Source: Treponema sp.
GTDB lineage: Bacteria > Spirochaetota > Spirochaetia > Treponematales > Breznakiellaceae
Direction of reading: 5' to 3'
Length of the DNA: 10,913 nucleotides
Assembly: GCA_031266095.1 (NCBI GenBank)
Contig: JAISBR010000148.1
Coordinates: forward strand, 1 to 10,913
Shown: one piece after another, positions 5,288-10,913 of the stretch
How positions within the stretch are numbered: the first letter of the stretch is position 1
How the letters are laid out: each line of letters opens with the position of its first letter
The notes under the pieces: model-generated
Database searches by the model: none
What the model was told of the DNA's origin: nothing
What the model saw: only the letters and a program-made list of their open reading frames with translations
Made by a program: the position numbers and the translations under genes

Positions 5288-6892
5288 TTAAGCGTGGTAG
5301 AGGACGCCGTAGCGGCGGGCTGCCAGCTTCCCGTCCCGGCAGGCCGGCTTTCCGGCTATGAAGGCGTGGTCGAGCCCGGTCGCGAGCCTCGCGGGGGAAA
5401 GATAGTCCGCCTGATCCCGAAAATTTTCCGGATCAAAGATCAAGATGTCCGCCTGGTATCCCGGCCGTAAGAGTCCCCGGTTTTGCAGCCCCAGCCTTTG
5501 AGCGGGCTGGGCGGTCATCTTGCGGACAGCCGCGGGGAATTCCAGAACCTTCCGCTCCCGAACAAAGTCCCGCAGAAAATGGGGAAAGGCGCCGTAAAGC
5601 CGGGGGTGGGGGGTTTTTTTATCCCCGTAAAGGGCGTCGGAGATGAGAGAGGAGTAAGGCAGGCGGGCGATGGTATCAATGTCTTCCTGGGACATACTTT
5701 GGTTGATAATGGCAACTTTGCCCTTTTCGCTGTAGAGCAGCCGGGCCGCCATTTCTGTTTCGTCCCGAAAGCCGTATTCCGCGGCGCAGGCCGTAACGGA
5801 CTTTCCCAGGAATTTCCGGTTCTCTTCCATGTTTACCGAACTGATGATCGTTCGGTCCCAGCCGATGGTTTGAGAGAGGTTGTCCCAGTTATCCTCCCCG
5901 GATGCCAGGAGCCGCCGCAGATTTTCGATGTTCCCGCTTTTGTTAAGTCCCGCGAGGGCCTTTCCCACTCCCCCGGCCAGGAAGCCGGGGGGCAGCATCT
6001 GCATCATGGTGGAAGAGCCGCAGTCATAGGGGTAAAAGTCAACGGTTATATCCATGCCCCGCGCCCGTTCGGCTTCAATGGTTTCAATGGCCTCATAAAG
6101 GACCCCATGCCAGGCCTTTACCCCGGCGGCCTTGAAGTGGCTGATTTCCAGGGGGACTTCCGCTTTTTTTGCTATAGCGATTACTTCTTTGACGGCCTTT
6201 ACCAGGTGTTCCGTTTCCCAGCGCATGTGGGTACAGAGAATGCCCTTCCGCCCCTTCATAACCCGCGCCAGGACGGCAATCTCATCGGCGCTGCTATAAA
6301 CCTCAGGCACGTACATGAGGCCGATGCTCATACCGAAGGCCCCGGCGTCAAGCGCGTCCCACAGGAGTCCCCGGGCTTTGTCCATCTCCGCCTCTGTATA
6401 GGGCCCGCTTTGAAAGCCCTTTGCCGCGATACGCAGCGCCCCCATGCCGGCGAAGAATCCCATATTGACCGGCAGCGGCGCCGAGTGGAGCCGCTCGACA
6501 TATTCCCGGTGGGTACTGAAGGTTTCGTTTTCAAACGCACCCAGGCAGGGGGCCAGGTAATCCTGCAGGGCTTTTCGGAAAGAGGGGACATTGGGAACCG
6601 GCGACATGCCGCAGTTTCCGGCAAAGCAGGAAGTAATGCCCTGGGCGATTTCGAGCCGGCCAAAATCGTCTTCCAGGGCCGCCGTATCGCAGTGGCGGTG
6701 GAGATCGATAAAGCCGGGGCAGACAACCCTGCCCCCGGCATCGATCGTTTCTTTCGCCGGGACAGGGGGCCGCTCTCTCCCGCTCACGCGCAGCTCGCTG
6801 ATAACTTCGCCCTCTACAAGAACGTCTCCCCGGAAAGGGGGATCGCCGCTTCCGTCCACAATCGTACCGTTACAAATATATAAACTCGTCAT
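5288..6892 (-). CDS. N-acyl-D-amino-acid deacylase (D-aminoacylase) family amidohydrolase
   Basis: A 534-residue metal-dependent amidohydrolase. Relatives remove the acyl group from N-acyl-D-amino acids, giving a free D-amino acid and a carboxylate. The N-terminal beta-domain ends in PGFIDLHRHCD (His65, His67), the metal-binding H-x-H. Cys94 in FAGNCGMSP matches the metal-bridging Cys of D-aminoacylase. His222 (CTHMR) and His252 (EISHFK) are the next two metal ligands, and Asp419 (SLISDAL) is the catalytic acid position. HPRLYGAFPHFL is a family hallmark, and the C-terminus returns to the beta-sandwich (QADILIFDP). All key residues are present, so an active enzyme is expected; dihydropyrimidinase-like or N-acyl-D-glutamate deacylase specificities cannot be excluded. 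GGGGAG 7 bases upstream supports the ATG at 6892. It follows the symporter by 36 bases and is probably its operon partner. Confidence 0.88.
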   Translation of the reverse strand: MTSLYICNGTIVDGSGDPPFRGDVLVEGEVISELRVSGRERPPVPAKETIDAGGRVVCPGFIDLHRHCDTAALEDDFGRLEIAQGITSCFAGNCGMSPVPNVPSFRKALQDYLAPCLGAFENETFSTHREYVERLHSAPLPVNMGFFAGMGALRIAAKGFQSGPYTEAEMDKARGLLWDALDAGAFGMSIGLMYVPEVYSSADEIAVLARVMKGRKGILCTHMRWETEHLVKAVKEVIAIAKKAEVPLEISHFKAAGVKAWHGVLYEAIETIEAERARGMDITVDFYPYDCGSSTMMQMLPPGFLAGGVGKALAGLNKSGNIENLRRLLASGEDNWDNLSQTIGWDRTIISSVNMEENRKFLGKSVTACAAEYGFRDETEMAARLLYSEKGKVAIINQSMSQEDIDTIARLPYSSLISDALYGDKKTPHPRLYGAFPHFLRDFVRERKVLEFPAAVRKMTAQPAQRLGLQNRGLLRPGYQADILIFDPENFRDQADYLSPARLATGLDHAFIAGKPACRDGKLAARRYGVLYHA

Positions 6893-6928: not shown

Positions 6929-8434
6929 TTACTGTTTCGTCCGTTCCCGGGATTCAAGAACCAGCCGCATAGCTTCTTCCTCGGAAACGATAACCTTGGG
7001 CGTAACAAGGCTGACAATAATGCCTGCCGCGAGGGCTATGATACTGACAGGGATGGCCGGGCCGGTAAATACCCCCGCCACCGCCTGCTGGAAGGGTTTT
7101 ACAAAGAGGTATAAGAAGCCGAAGATGGTCCCGCAGAAGATACAGGCTATACCGCCCTGCCAGGTGGCGCGTTTCCAGTATTTTCCCAGGATCATCATCA
7201 TAGCGATACTGGGAATCAGGGAACCCACCACGTTGGAAATGTACCCGATAATATCCTGGGCAAAGAGGGTGGCAAGAAAGGCGATGAAGAGGGTGAATAC
7301 CAGGCATACCCTGGAGTAACTGACCATCTTTTCTTTAGGGACACTTTTCCCCGTAACTGTAGAATAGACATCGATCAAAAGGATGGTGATCCCCGCCATG
7401 GCGTCCGAGTCGGCTGAGGAGAGGGTGGCCGAAAGGCCGGCGATGAGGAACATCAATCCCAGGGTCGGCCCCAGGATGGTGGTAGCCATATAGGTGAAGG
7501 TGAAATTGGGGTTGGCAAGAACCGCGGCGGCTCCTTCCCTGCTGGCAATGGCAAAACCGGACATACCGATAATCGCGGGGATAAAGGAGAAGATGAGCAG
7601 TAGCACCCCGGAGAAAAAGAAAGCCTTTTTAGCGGCAGCGTTGGAGGAGGCGCTGTAAACCCTGGTACGGAAACCGGGAGTACCCACCTGGGAGATCCCC
7701 ACCGTATAGGCCAGGGATATGGCGGCCATCATGGTAACCCCCGCCAGCCCGTAAAAGCTCAGGGCCTCGGGCTTGCCGGCCGCTATGTACGCATCGTTGA
7801 TTGCCTGCCAGCCGCCCGCGGCGGGAAGAGCCTTGATGCAGATCGCTATAAAGCCCCCCAGGATCAACAGGACCTGTATGTTATCGGTCAAGACCACCGC
7901 CAGGTAGCCGCCGACAAAAACGTAGACCCCAAACCCCAGCATAGTGATGAGGCGGGCGATAATGGGATCGATTCCCGTTACATAACTTAAATAGGTGCCG
8001 CCTCCGTTCATGTGGTTCCCCAGCCAGGCAACTTCGGCGATAAACAGGAAGAACCCCATCACATTACGGACCTTTTTGTTTCCCCCAAAGCGGAACTGCA
8101 TCTCCTCCGACAGGGTCATAAATTTGTAATCCCGCTCGGAGCAGAAAAAAAAGGCCAGGAAAACCATGCCGAGGGCCCCGCCCAATCCGTACAGGGAACC
8201 ATACCAGCCTTGACGGAAACCGTTGGCGGTAGCCCCCATAGAGGAACCGGTTCCGATAAGGGTGGCGCTGATAGTCCCCAGGAGCAGGAGGAACGGCAGT
8301 TTACGGCCCGCCAGGAGGTAATCTTCCCCATCTTTGTTTTTTCGGGAACTGAGAATACCGATGCCTATCAGTATCGTGATATAAATCAAAAATCCGACGA
8401 TAAAAAATGTGCGGTGTTCCAAAGAAAAATCCAT
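6929..8434 (-). CDS. Sodium:solute symporter (SSS family)
   Basis: A 501-residue inner-membrane transporter of the PutP/SGLT (SSS) family, which couples sodium entry to uptake of amino acids, sugars, carboxylates or similar small solutes. About 13 hydrophobic segments are visible. Family marks are DYLLAGRKLPFLLLLG followed by TISATLIGTGSSMG (about 39-66) and SSADSDAMAG (339-348), whose hydroxyl residues correspond to the second sodium site on helix 8 in this fold. Length is typical. The ATG at 8434 is preceded by AAGGAGAT at a good distance. The gene is first in a likely two-gene operon with the deacylase 36 bases downstream, so the cargo is plausibly an N-acylated or D-amino acid; this is inference from context, since specificity cannot be read from SSS sequences. 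Confidence 0.92.
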   Translation of the reverse strand: MDFSLEHRTFFIVGFLIYITILIGIGILSSRKNKDGEDYLLAGRKLPFLLLLGTISATLIGTGSSMGATANGFRQGWYGSLYGLGGALGMVFLAFFFCSERDYKFMTLSEEMQFRFGGNKKVRNVMGFFLFIAEVAWLGNHMNGGGTYLSYVTGIDPIIARLITMLGFGVYVFVGGYLAVVLTDNIQVLLILGGFIAICIKALPAAGGWQAINDAYIAAGKPEALSFYGLAGVTMMAAISLAYTVGISQVGTPGFRTRVYSASSNAAAKKAFFFSGVLLLIFSFIPAIIGMSGFAIASREGAAAVLANPNFTFTYMATTILGPTLGLMFLIAGLSATLSSADSDAMAGITILLIDVYSTVTGKSVPKEKMVSYSRVCLVFTLFIAFLATLFAQDIIGYISNVVGSLIPSIAMMMILGKYWKRATWQGGIACIFCGTIFGFLYLFVKPFQQAVAGVFTGPAIPVSIIALAAGIIVSLVTPKVIVSEEEAMRLVLESRERTKQ

Positions 8435-8705: not shown

Positions 8706-9566
8706 CTACTGCAGAAGCTGGAGAACCGATTGACCCCTTTGATTGGCCTGCGCCAACATGGCGGTACCGGACTGAGTAAGAATCATGTTCTTGGTGTAAT
8801 TGACCGTCTCGTTCGCCATGTGGGTATCCCGGATGCGCGACTCGGAAGCCTGCAAGTTTTCAGCTCCCACGTCGATGCCGCGTACCGCGTGCTCCAGACG
8901 GTTCTGATAGGCGCCAAGATCGGCTCTCTGTTTGTTGACGATCTGCAACGCCTTGTCAAGGGTTCCAATGGCACGGTTGGCGCTGTCCGGTTCGGACAGT
9001 GAAATAAAGGTATCGTCACCAACGTTCCGGATCCCAAGACCCTTCGAAGTCATAGTGCCGATAAACACCTGCTCCCGCTGATCCATGTTGGCGCCGATAT
9101 GGAACCACATAGAGGCGGTAACCACGTTTTCCCCGATCATCCGGCCGAAACGGCCTGTCAGGAGATTCATCCCGTTGAACTGGGCGTGCGAGGCAATCCG
9201 GTCGATTTCGTCAACCAAGGCTGAAACCTCAATCTGGATGTACATCCGGTCCTCCGCGGTATAAATACCGTTAGAGGCCTGCACTGCCAACTCGCGGAGA
9301 CGCTGGACGATGTCTTCAGATTCCTGCAGATAGCCTTCCGCTGTCTGAATGAATGAAATACCATTCTGAGCATTGGTTGACGCCTGATTCAGGCCCCGGA
9401 TTTGGGCCCTCATCTTCTCAGAAACAGCAAGTCCCGAAGCATCGTCACCGGCGCGGTTGATGCGGAGTCCGCTCGACAGTTTCTCCATGCTTTTATCCAG
9501 GAACACCTGGGTAACCTTGAGGGACCTGTCGGCAAACATCGCGCTTAAGTTGTGATTAATAATCAT
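8706..9566 (-). CDS. flaB: Flagellin, periplasmic flagellar filament core protein FlaB
   Basis: A 286-residue flagellin, the usual length of spirochaete FlaB. It polymerises into the core of the periplasmic flagella that drive cell rotation. The N-terminal D0/D1 region begins [16 protein letters not shown] and carries [20 protein letters not shown] and [20 protein letters not shown]. The middle keeps the spirochaete-type block [15 protein letters not shown] instead of the large variable domain of external flagellins. The C-terminal D1/D0 region has [28 protein letters not shown] and [15 protein letters not shown], ending VLQLLQ. No signal peptide, as expected for type III export. The ATG at 9566 is chosen; a GTG at 9572 in frame overlaps the AGGAG ribosome-binding site (9571-9576) and is rejected. 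It has its own sigma-28-type promoter, a long structured leader and a strong terminator, so it is transcribed alone. Confidence 0.97.
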
Positions 9567-9621
9567 ATTCACTCCTTTGGCTTTTCCGGCGCACCGCCGT
9601 CATCGACGGCTTACGGCGCCG

Positions 9622-9635
9622 CGGCATCCATGCCG
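9622..9635 (-). promoter_or_regulatory. Hairpin with CsrA-type GGA loop in the flaB leader
   Basis: The RNA reads CGGCAUGGAUGCCG, a 5-bp stem that presents UGGA in the loop. The CsrA/RsmA recognition consensus is RUACARGGAUGU with GGA in a hairpin loop, so CAUGGAUG matches except for U in place of R. A second GGA (AAAGGAG) is the flaB ribosome-binding site itself, about 50 bases downstream, allowing a two-site arrangement. CsrA control of flagellin messages is known for Bacillus hag and Borrelia flaB; its use here is inference. Confidence 0.45.
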
Positions 9636-9675
9636 TTGTTGTATGGTGTCCGCGTAACGCGAACTTTTGTGCCAA

Positions 9676-9693
9676 GGTGTATGTACATACACC
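9676..9693. repeat. 18-bp perfect palindrome in the flaB leader region
   Basis: GGTGTATGTACATACACC is a perfect inverted repeat without a central gap. As DNA it could be an operator for a dimeric regulator; as RNA it forms a 7-bp stem with a GUAC tetraloop. It lies about 100 bases downstream of the predicted flaB transcript start and about 200 bases upstream of the divergent lipoprotein promoter. Its place within a series of hairpins favours the RNA reading. Confidence 0.6.
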
Positions 9694-9787
9694 GGAACCC
9701 TCGACCCACCCGTTCCCGGAAGGGTGAGGATACACGGATAAACCGCGGAGGCCCGACGGGCACATGGTTTTATCCGTTTCATTTAGA

Positions 9788-9814
9788 GTATCGGATTTTA
9801 AAAATAGAGCTTTA
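9788..9814 (-). promoter_or_regulatory. Sigma-28 (FliA-type) promoter of flaB
   Basis: On the minus strand TAAA (9814-9811), 15 bases, then TCCGATAC (9795-9788). Compared with TAAA-N15-GCCGATAA, the TAAA and spacing are exact and 6 of 8 bases of the -10 agree (CCGATA core). Sigma-28 control of flagellin genes is general in motile bacteria, including treponemes. Transcription would begin near 9781, giving a leader of about 215 bases. Confidence 0.7.
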
Positions 9815-9873
9815 GGGAAATCCACGCTATATCGTATCGGTACCAGGACCGCAGCTTATTTCAGCCGAAAAGG

Positions 9874-9902
9874 TTGAAAACAGGGAACTATGGTGTTATA
9901 TT
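9874..9902 (+). promoter_or_regulatory. Sigma-70 promoter of the lipoprotein gene
   Basis: TTGAAA at 9874-9879, a 17-base spacer and TATATT at 9897-9902, followed by AT-rich DNA. Transcription should begin near 9909, about 64 bases before the start codon at 9973. It diverges from the flaB promoter with about 60 bases between the -35 regions. Confidence 0.65.
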
Positions 9903-9972
9903 ATAAATTAAGAAACTTTTTTCACCCGGAACCGCATCTATACCGATACTGAAGGGTTATAGGGAAATGATC

Positions 9973-10913
9973 ATGCAAAACGATAAAAACACGCCTATCC
10001 GGCCTGCTGCCGCGCGGTCACGCGGCGGTCTGTTGAACGCCGCTCTCTTGAGCGCGGTGCTGGTGAGCGCCGCTCTACTGAGCGGACTCTTCCTCGGCGG
10101 CTGCTCAAGTCCGCTGGACGCCGGGGCAAACGGCGGCGGCGGGAACGTCACCCTCACCTTTGGCAAGAGCGACGGCCGCACGATCACTTCCGGCGTGGAC
10201 CTGCCCGCCGACGTGCTGGCCTCCATGCGCTTTGAGGCGAAACTCTCCGGGCCGAACCGGGAAGCCCTTACCCTCAACGCAAAATGGGGGGAAACCACCA
10301 AGCTCAAACTGCGCCAGGGCAAATGGCGGATTGACGCCAAGGCGTACCAGGCGGACAGCCCGAACCTCGCGGGGACGGGCAGCATCTCCTTTGACATAAA
10401 GGACAGAAACAATAAGATCATCGTGCCCATGGCAATGCGCGACACCGCCGGGGCTCCTCTTTCCTGCTACGAGATACACGTACCCGGCTTTGCGAACGGC
10501 CAGGTCGAGGCCAGCTTCACGGCGGCCTACCCGGGAACCACGGTTACCCTGACAACGGCGCCCGCCGGCGGGTATATCCTGCACAGTCTTACGTACACCG
10601 ACGGGACCGCTACGCACACCCCCGCGGGCGGCGGGAATGAGTACACCTTTACCATGCCCGACGCGGACGTAACGGTATCCGCGGTATTTATCCATCCCTT
10701 CTATACGATAACGTACAGCGCGGGCACGGGCTCGGGCACGGTTCCGGCGCCCGTTGTCATCGAATCAGGCACTTCCATCCCCCTGCCCGCGGGAAGCGCG
10801 CCGTCAGGCGGCATACCCTTTCATTCCTGGGAAATGGGTGGGACGGTTTACACGGCGGGCGCTTCCTATACGGTGACCGGCGACGTAACCCTCACCGCCC
10901 GCTGGGCGTTCAG
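9973..10913 (+). CDS. Putative lipoprotein with InlB/Listeria-Bacteroides-type repeats (incomplete at right edge)
   Basis: An open frame of 313 codons running out of the window. The ATG at 9973 has AGGGA (9961-9965) 7 bases upstream; an in-frame ATG at 9967 is too close to it. A basic N-region, a hydrophobic stretch (about 20-41) and the lipobox LGGC with Cys44 predict a lipid-anchored, exported protein. After a Gly-rich spacer comes a beta-rich domain (about 54-150). A repeat at about 169-239 follows, ending YTFTMPDADVTVSAVF, a pattern of the bacterial repeat family near Flg_new_2. A second unit to residue 311 starts YTITYSAGTGSGTVPAP and ends VTLTARW, the pattern of InlB B-repeats. More repeats probably follow beyond the edge. 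Such proteins are common surface proteins in treponemes; binding or adhesion is plausible but not shown. Codons are strongly GC-ending compared with the upstream intergenic DNA. Confidence 0.85.
   Translation, partial: MQNDKNTPIRPAAARSRGGLLNAALLSAVLVSAALLSGLFLGGCSSPLDAGANGGGGNVTLTFGKSDGRTITSGVDLPADVLASMRFEAKLSGPNREALTLNAKWGETTKLKLRQGKWRIDAKAYQADSPNLAGTGSISFDIKDRNNKIIVPMAMRDTAGAPLSCYEIHVPGFANGQVEASFTAAYPGTTVTLTTAPAGGYILHSLTYTDGTATHTPAGGGNEYTFTMPDADVTVSAVFIHPFYTITYSAGTGSGTVPAPVVIESGTSIPLPAGSAPSGGIPFHSWEMGGTVYTAGASYTVTGDVTLTARWAF

Follow-up and report, generated by a model that had tools for sequence, protein, structure and literature searches.

The window, i.e. the whole stretch of 10,913 nucleotides of Treponema sp. 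that we analysed (contig JAISBR010000148.1), carries on its minus strand a flagellin gene, whose product of 286 aa has Flagellin_N and Flagellin_C domains. Downstream of it, on the same strand, lie genes for a sodium:solute symporter (6929-8434) and an amidohydrolase (5288-6892). On the plus strand, a divergent ORF with InlB B-repeat and Listeria-Bacteroides repeat domains (9967-10911) runs off the window, accompanied by a sigma-70-like promoter match at 9874-9902. The features of the flagellin gene and of the stretch preceding it are, in 5' to 3' order of the minus strand:

9788..9814 (-), predicted sigma-28-type promoter, TAAA-15-TCCGATAC, from a motif scan
9567..9780 (-), predicted flagellin mRNA leader, 214 nt, from the promoter rule and the ATG
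9734..9777 (-), P1, 5'-terminal hairpin with a covarying outer stem and a 1x3 internal loop (CUC)
9761-9751 (-), P1 inner hairpin, GCCC-GUC-GGGC
9696..9732 (-), P2, sequence-conserved hairpin around CCUCACCCUUCCGGGAACGGGUGGGUCGAGGG
9676..9693 (-), P3, hairpin 3' of P2 and 5' of GGCAC, optional
9668..9673 (-), GGCACA, of which GGCAC is conserved 3' of P2
9648..9664 (-), P4, hairpin 3' of GGCAC and 5' of P5, optional
9622..9635 (-), P5, CGGC-AUGGAU-GCCG, an ANGGAN hexaloop hairpin (loop 9631-9626) and candidate high-affinity CsrA site
9587..9621 (-), P6, hairpin with covariation, proposed as a folded spacer that separates P5 from the Shine-Dalgarno sequence
9572..9578 (-), Shine-Dalgarno sequence AAAGGAG, candidate second CsrA site
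8706..9566 (-), FlaB-type flagellin CDS, 286 aa, from ORF and domain match

As start codon of flagellin we take the ATG at 9566 and not the GTG at 9572, which overlaps the Shine-Dalgarno sequence. From the sigma-28-type promoter we infer a transcript start near 9780, leaving a predicted leader of 214 nt up to the ATG; an earlier note on this DNA had predicted such a leader at 215 bases. This rule has outside support, since at loci that appear to be T. denticola-like (L110, L112-L116) it yields leaders of 123-125 nt, in agreement with the mapped start of T. denticola flaB2, which passages of PMC9481697 place 124 nt 5' of the ATG, with TTAA as the -35 and CCGATAA as the -10 element.

The six hairpins and their conservation

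All six hairpins that the earlier note had described in the flagellin leader are present on the minus strand, with P1 to P6 spanning 9777-9587. Its statements on the two ends hold as well: P1, said to lie near the transcript start, begins 3 nt past the predicted one, and P6, said to end about 10 bases before the ribosome-binding site, ends 11 nt before the GGAG. Folding of 9785-9571 gave -93.1 kcal/mol, compared with -75.3 (sd 4.8) for shuffled sequences (z -3.72), and a single one of 200 shuffles folded as well, so that the comparison with shuffled controls, which the note had proposed, came out in favour of the leader.

A flagellin search kept 80 loci, with titles mostly of Treponema or Spirochaetaceae and the nearest at 92% identity; presumably most of them stem from termite guts. 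As filter for group 1 we used the Shine-Dalgarno type together with P1 or P2, which 42 of the 80 loci passed, making 43 leaders with the window. Among the loci outside group 1, some are cut short and others are paralogues with short leaders. The 43 leaders are 142-421 nt long and have a mean folding z of -5.64 (42 of 43 below -2), compared with -1.98 for coding stretches of equal length (22 of 42 below -2) and -0.71 for stretches upstream of the promoter (5 of 42 below -2). In 36 of the 43 leaders, 17-23 nt separate the predicted start from the P1 inner hairpin, a count for which the promoter was sought only up to about 110 nt upstream of P1; a wider promoter scan picked the same promoter in most leaders.

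We aligned P1 in 42 of the 43 leaders (L015 has no P1 motif), P2 in 41 (the motif search gave no P2 in L045 and L070) and P5 with P6 in 37 (omitting L011, L024, L025, L027, L028 and L033, which have a long P6). Because shuffles ignore kinship, we also built a tree of the 43 flagellin genes and counted compensatory events on it by parsimony, with slid registers as controls. For P1, 75 cells were changed on both sides compared with 26.9 in shuffles (0/500), all eight outer pairs showed both-side change, and the gene tree gave 49 compensatory events versus 7-15 in slid registers; only 69.5% of the outer stem cells were paired in the gapless register, and the number of pairs with change on both sides was not above shuffles (101/500). 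For P5 and P6 together, the values were 47 cells versus 15.3 in shuffles (0/500) and 29 events versus 1-9 in slid registers, with both-side change at 11 of 17 pairs and 90.9% of cells paired; further pair types were not above shuffles (175/500). For P2, there were 4 cells versus 2.4 in shuffles (106/500) and 4 events versus 0-5 in controls, and all five measures of the shuffle tests were weak or absent. Of the six stems in which the earlier note had proposed to look for covariation, P1, P5 and P6 are thus above controls, whereas the compensatory change in P2 does not exceed that of controls, and P2 therefore rests on sequence conservation.

The evenly spaced chain of six hairpins did not hold up as a conserved unit: P1, P2, P5 and P6 belong to the core, and P3 and P4 come and go. 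Judged by these comparisons, the leader is a conserved structured RNA with a core of P1, P2, GGCAC, P5, P6 and the Shine-Dalgarno sequence. In its 5' domain, the P1 inner hairpin GCCC-GUY-GGGC is nearly invariant among relatives and the outer stem changes freely. GGCAC follows at most 56 nt past P2 in all 41 leaders that have P2; the interval contains one or two hairpins in 28 of these and measures 0-5 nt in 13. From none to several optional hairpins stand between GGCAC and P5; P3 and P4 of the window are members of the optional plug-ins. Two additional contacts were considered by eye and rejected, namely kissing of the P1 triloop with the P2 loop, whose letters do not co-vary among the leaders, and a helix between GGCAC and the GCC that precedes the Shine-Dalgarno sequence, of which only about two pairs hold across the leaders.

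At the 3' end, the order among the leaders is P5 (GGC-ANGGAN-GCC in most), P6 and then CCAAAGGAG. All 43 leaders contain an ANGGAN hexaloop on a stem of three pairs or more (mean in shuffles 3.2, maximum 11, ignoring kinship), and so do 32 of the 35 other regions upstream of flagellin (mean in shuffles 1.9, maximum 6). In all 37 aligned rows the A and the GGA of the P5 loop are invariant and the two N positions variable, and the GGAG of the Shine-Dalgarno sequence is present in all 43 leaders. On average, the GGA of the P5 loop is predicted to be unpaired at 0.98 and the Shine-Dalgarno sequence at 0.41. P5 and P6 adjoin with a gap of 0 nt in 42 of 43 leaders, and the distance from the end of P6 to GGAG is 10-12 nt in 42 of 43, L070 being the one leader that breaks the junction rule; the span of P6 varies from 28 to 97 nt. 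In a subgroup that includes L008, L010 and L005, an intrinsic-terminator-like hairpin with a G+C core and a U run lies 5' of P5. The T. denticola-like leaders have a further GGA element, CAGAGGAUCCGG, upstream of P5.

Distribution and comparison with known RNAs

We built one model of the 5' domain (R1: P1 and P2, from 24 of the 43 leaders) and one of the 3' module (R2: P5, P6 and Shine-Dalgarno sequence, from 37), and searched genome sets drawn evenly from larger groups with strict filters; 20 of the regions fetched thereafter were hand-picked, mostly for weak or double matches. On the window, which is in its training set, R1 scores 89 bits at 9781-9694. It matched 7 of 392 spirochaete genomes and, with 77 matches in total, 73 of 145 genomes of the Breznakiella homolactica family (a single match in 69 of the 73), the other 72 having no match at the filters used. 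Of the 27 fetched places, 26 are upstream of flagellin, the exception being a contig-end fragment (L129); 10 of the 27 had come up before in the flagellin search, which leaves an independent count of 16 among 17 new places. Two assemblies, G411 (C17, C447) and G465 (C30, C32), have two 5'-domain matches each, all upstream of flagellin, and these pairs could be real duplicates or mixed bins.

R2 matched 50 of the 392 spirochaete genomes at 51 places. The 28 matches with E < 1e-6 all directly precede flagellin, 25 of them at new places and 3 overlapping loci from the flagellin search. Of the 23 weak places (E 1e-6 to 1e-3), 22 were fetched (the remaining one is in G142); 3 of these are upstream of flagellin (L122, L145, L146) and 19 away from it (L123 and 18 others). 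The carriers include a genome of 1.14 Mb (G059) and genomes that appear T. denticola-like, and R1 had no match in the T. denticola-like genomes that carry R2 matches. The 3' module is therefore more widely distributed than the 5' domain (50 versus 7 of 392 genomes), and this distribution suggests that it is probably the older of the two. Genes for csrA and fliW were found in 127 and 128 of the 145 family genomes, respectively, and in the three genomes searched at first the two genes lie next to each other; csrA had no match in 9 of the 73 genomes with R1, some of which may be incomplete, and likewise in 9 of the 72 without it.

Weak R2 matches without flagellin at L144:1131-1221, L152:1162-1255 and L159:1176-1269 (minus) share a layout in which a GGCAUGGAUGCC hairpin is followed by a middle and then a terminator-like hairpin, the last with GGA in its loop. 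This element could be a CsrA-binding small RNA or merely a bidirectional terminator, on either strand.

In Rfam, the window has no match at gathering score, which agrees with the earlier note's proposal of an undescribed RNA, and neither do 12 group-1 relatives. At E up to 10, the region 9540-9830 gave only snoR31 (5.6) and CRISPR-DR15 (2.7), both at chance level. As precedent the earlier note had named flg-Rhizobiales, a flagellin leader RNA from another phylum; this family, whose model we take to be present in the library searched, was found neither at gathering score in the window nor among the matches with E up to 10 in 9540-9830. While it stands as a precedent for the class, nearer ones had been missed, namely Termite-flg (RF01729) and the control of flagellin leaders by CsrA.

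Membership of the window leader in Termite-flg was rejected, since there was no match even at E up to 10. The family, which goes back to Weinberg et al. 2010 (PMC2864571) and has a model of 106 nt, resembles it in being a flagellin leader in related genomes and in that its last hairpin, GGCAaGGAUaGCC, is also GGA-looped, if not always as an exact ANGGAN hexaloop. It differs in its 5' structure and in preceding another flagellin gene, e.g. at 212953 in G001, where R1 matches at 3364568. RF01729 is over its cut-off in 74 of the 145 family genomes, and all six fetched matches are upstream of flagellin, one of them overlapping a locus from the flagellin search. At L050:4069-4170 and L164-L169, its last hairpin resembles a CsrA site. 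A candidate CsrA hairpin is thus common to the Termite-flg, window-type and short-type (many of L040-L080) flagellin leaders. We found no earlier report of a window-type leader in open-licence PMC papers.

Candidate CsrA sites and rival readings of the leader

The window combines an AUGGAU loop in P5 (9631-9626) with a GGA within the Shine-Dalgarno sequence, as in a CsrA dual site. Passages of PMC7652899 describe binding of the CsrA homologue RsmE to ANGGAN hexaloop hairpins, bridging by CsrA of a hairpin site and the Shine-Dalgarno sequence in E. coli glgC, where the hairpin-loop GGA is likewise just upstream of the Shine-Dalgarno site, and control of B. subtilis hag by CsrA and FliW, with two CsrA sites of which one is within the Shine-Dalgarno sequence. 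Our leader differs from glgC and hag in that its candidate sites are set apart by a separate covarying hairpin, whose ends are fixed while its length varies, and in that a large conserved 5' domain precedes them. In T. denticola, flaB2 has a sigma-28 start as predicted here, and R2 matches the T. denticola-like loci L110 and L112-L116; the relevant passages of PMC9481697 mention CsrA sites near the Shine-Dalgarno sequences of flaB1 and flaB2, but not the hairpin module. Passages of PMC8668096 report that L. biflexa CsrA bound a flaB3 probe via its GGA in gel shifts, and that CsrA overexpression in L. interrogans raised flaB1, flaB2 and flaB4 transcripts, for which reason the sign of CsrA regulation may vary. 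Set beside these cases, the window leader appears to be a CsrA-type flagellin leader with an added domain not found in Rfam. The central suggestion of the earlier note, a cis-regulatory RNA outside Rfam, is borne out by conservation, compensatory changes, folding z-scores and strong model matches at flagellin genes. Stabilisation of the flagellin message or timing of its translation, the two functions that it had proposed, are plausible candidates.

The reading we prefer, at a probability of about 0.72, is that of a two-part cis-regulatory RNA, in which a 3' CsrA clamp would be relieved by FliW and a 5' module would most likely protect the leader. We infer that a CsrA dimer would grip the ANGGAN loop of P5, with its second face on the GGA of the Shine-Dalgarno sequence. 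P6 would fold away the intervening RNA and so hold the two sites at a fixed distance, whatever its own length. That P6 keeps its ends but not its length is what such a folded spacer would lead one to expect, and bridging by CsrA needs P6 to be folded because the linear distance between the two GGA is 47-116 nt. Bound to the leader, CsrA would block ribosomes; export of flagellin would free FliW, FliW would take CsrA off, and the net effect would be that flagellin is produced only while in use. Several results count against the two-part reading: the low predicted accessibility of the Shine-Dalgarno sequence (0.41), the linear distance just given, the genomes with R1 but no csrA match, the exception L070, the lack of excess compensatory change in P2, the share of P1 outer stem cells that are unpaired in the gapless register, the weak R2 matches, most of them away from flagellin, and the raised transcripts in L. 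interrogans. The 5' module would most likely keep the long ribosome-free leader intact and structured, a role consistent with its location at the very 5' end and with inserts that are filled by hairpins. The invariant letters in P2, in GGCAC and in the inner hairpin of P1 point to a specific partner in addition, for which P2 and GGCAC are possibly a docking site. For this module we rank stabiliser first and sensor second as putative roles, neither being strongly supported.

That P1, P2 and GGCAC bind a metabolite or a flagellar protein and thereby alter translation or the access of CsrA seems to us unlikely, albeit the strongest of the rivals. The sequence of P2 is conserved with few compensatory changes, as is often the case in binding sites, GGCAC is found in 41 of 41 leaders, the P1 inner hairpin is nearly invariant and R1 has a single match in 69 of 73 genomes. 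Yet no conserved alternative pairing was found among the leaders; by eye, GGCAC pairs with the GCC ahead of the Shine-Dalgarno sequence in only part of them; three leaders lack P2 (L045, L070) or the P1 motif (L015) in the motif search, and half of the family (72 of 145 genomes) has no R1 match at the filters used. It is improbable that the 5' domain constitutes an RNA sensor of a new class, which would follow the state of the periplasmic flagellum by way of a protein or small molecule and pass the signal to the CsrA clamp; if such a sensor were present, one flagellin leader would integrate two inputs.

We also doubt that the hairpin string is purely a stabiliser, which would shield an abundant, long-lived message from nucleases without any regulator and irrespective of sequence. 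Stability alone would not require the degree of conservation seen in the letters of ANGGAN, in GGCAC, in P2 and in the inner hairpin of P1, and the junctions between P5, P6 and the Shine-Dalgarno sequence are fixed, although a stabiliser would fit the folding of most of the extra length into hairpins among leaders of 142-421 nt, the mean z of -5.6 (versus -2.0 for coding stretches and -0.7 upstream of the promoter) and the start of P1 in the window 3 nt after the predicted transcript start.

A transcription attenuator, in which a terminator-like hairpin before P5 would stop most transcripts and readthrough would be regulated, is very unlikely: a hairpin with a G+C core and a U run does lie just 5' of P5 in several relatives, e.g. 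L008 and L010, but it is absent from the window and from L012, L026 and L031 among others, and the U run sits inside the stem. Chance inverted repeats or a coding stretch can practically be dismissed in view of the compensatory changes on the gene tree, even if the same strand has open frames of 60 and 89 codons that run through the leader; an upstream ORF was rejected, as single-base gaps inside P2 among relatives break any frame.

Under the preferred reading of a CsrA clamp with a protective 5' module, the leader would offer a concrete RNA architecture for the post-transcriptional control of flagellin in spirochaetes, which the abstract of PMC3757020 describes as only partially known. A folded spacer with fixed ends makes a clean geometric prediction for bridging by CsrA. 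The GGA hairpin, which three kinds of flagellin leader have in common, suggests an interpretation of Termite-flg that we did not find in the passages of its source paper (PMC2864571), which name no partner. The 5' domain, finally, is a compact conserved RNA found in 73 of the 145 sampled genomes of the family.
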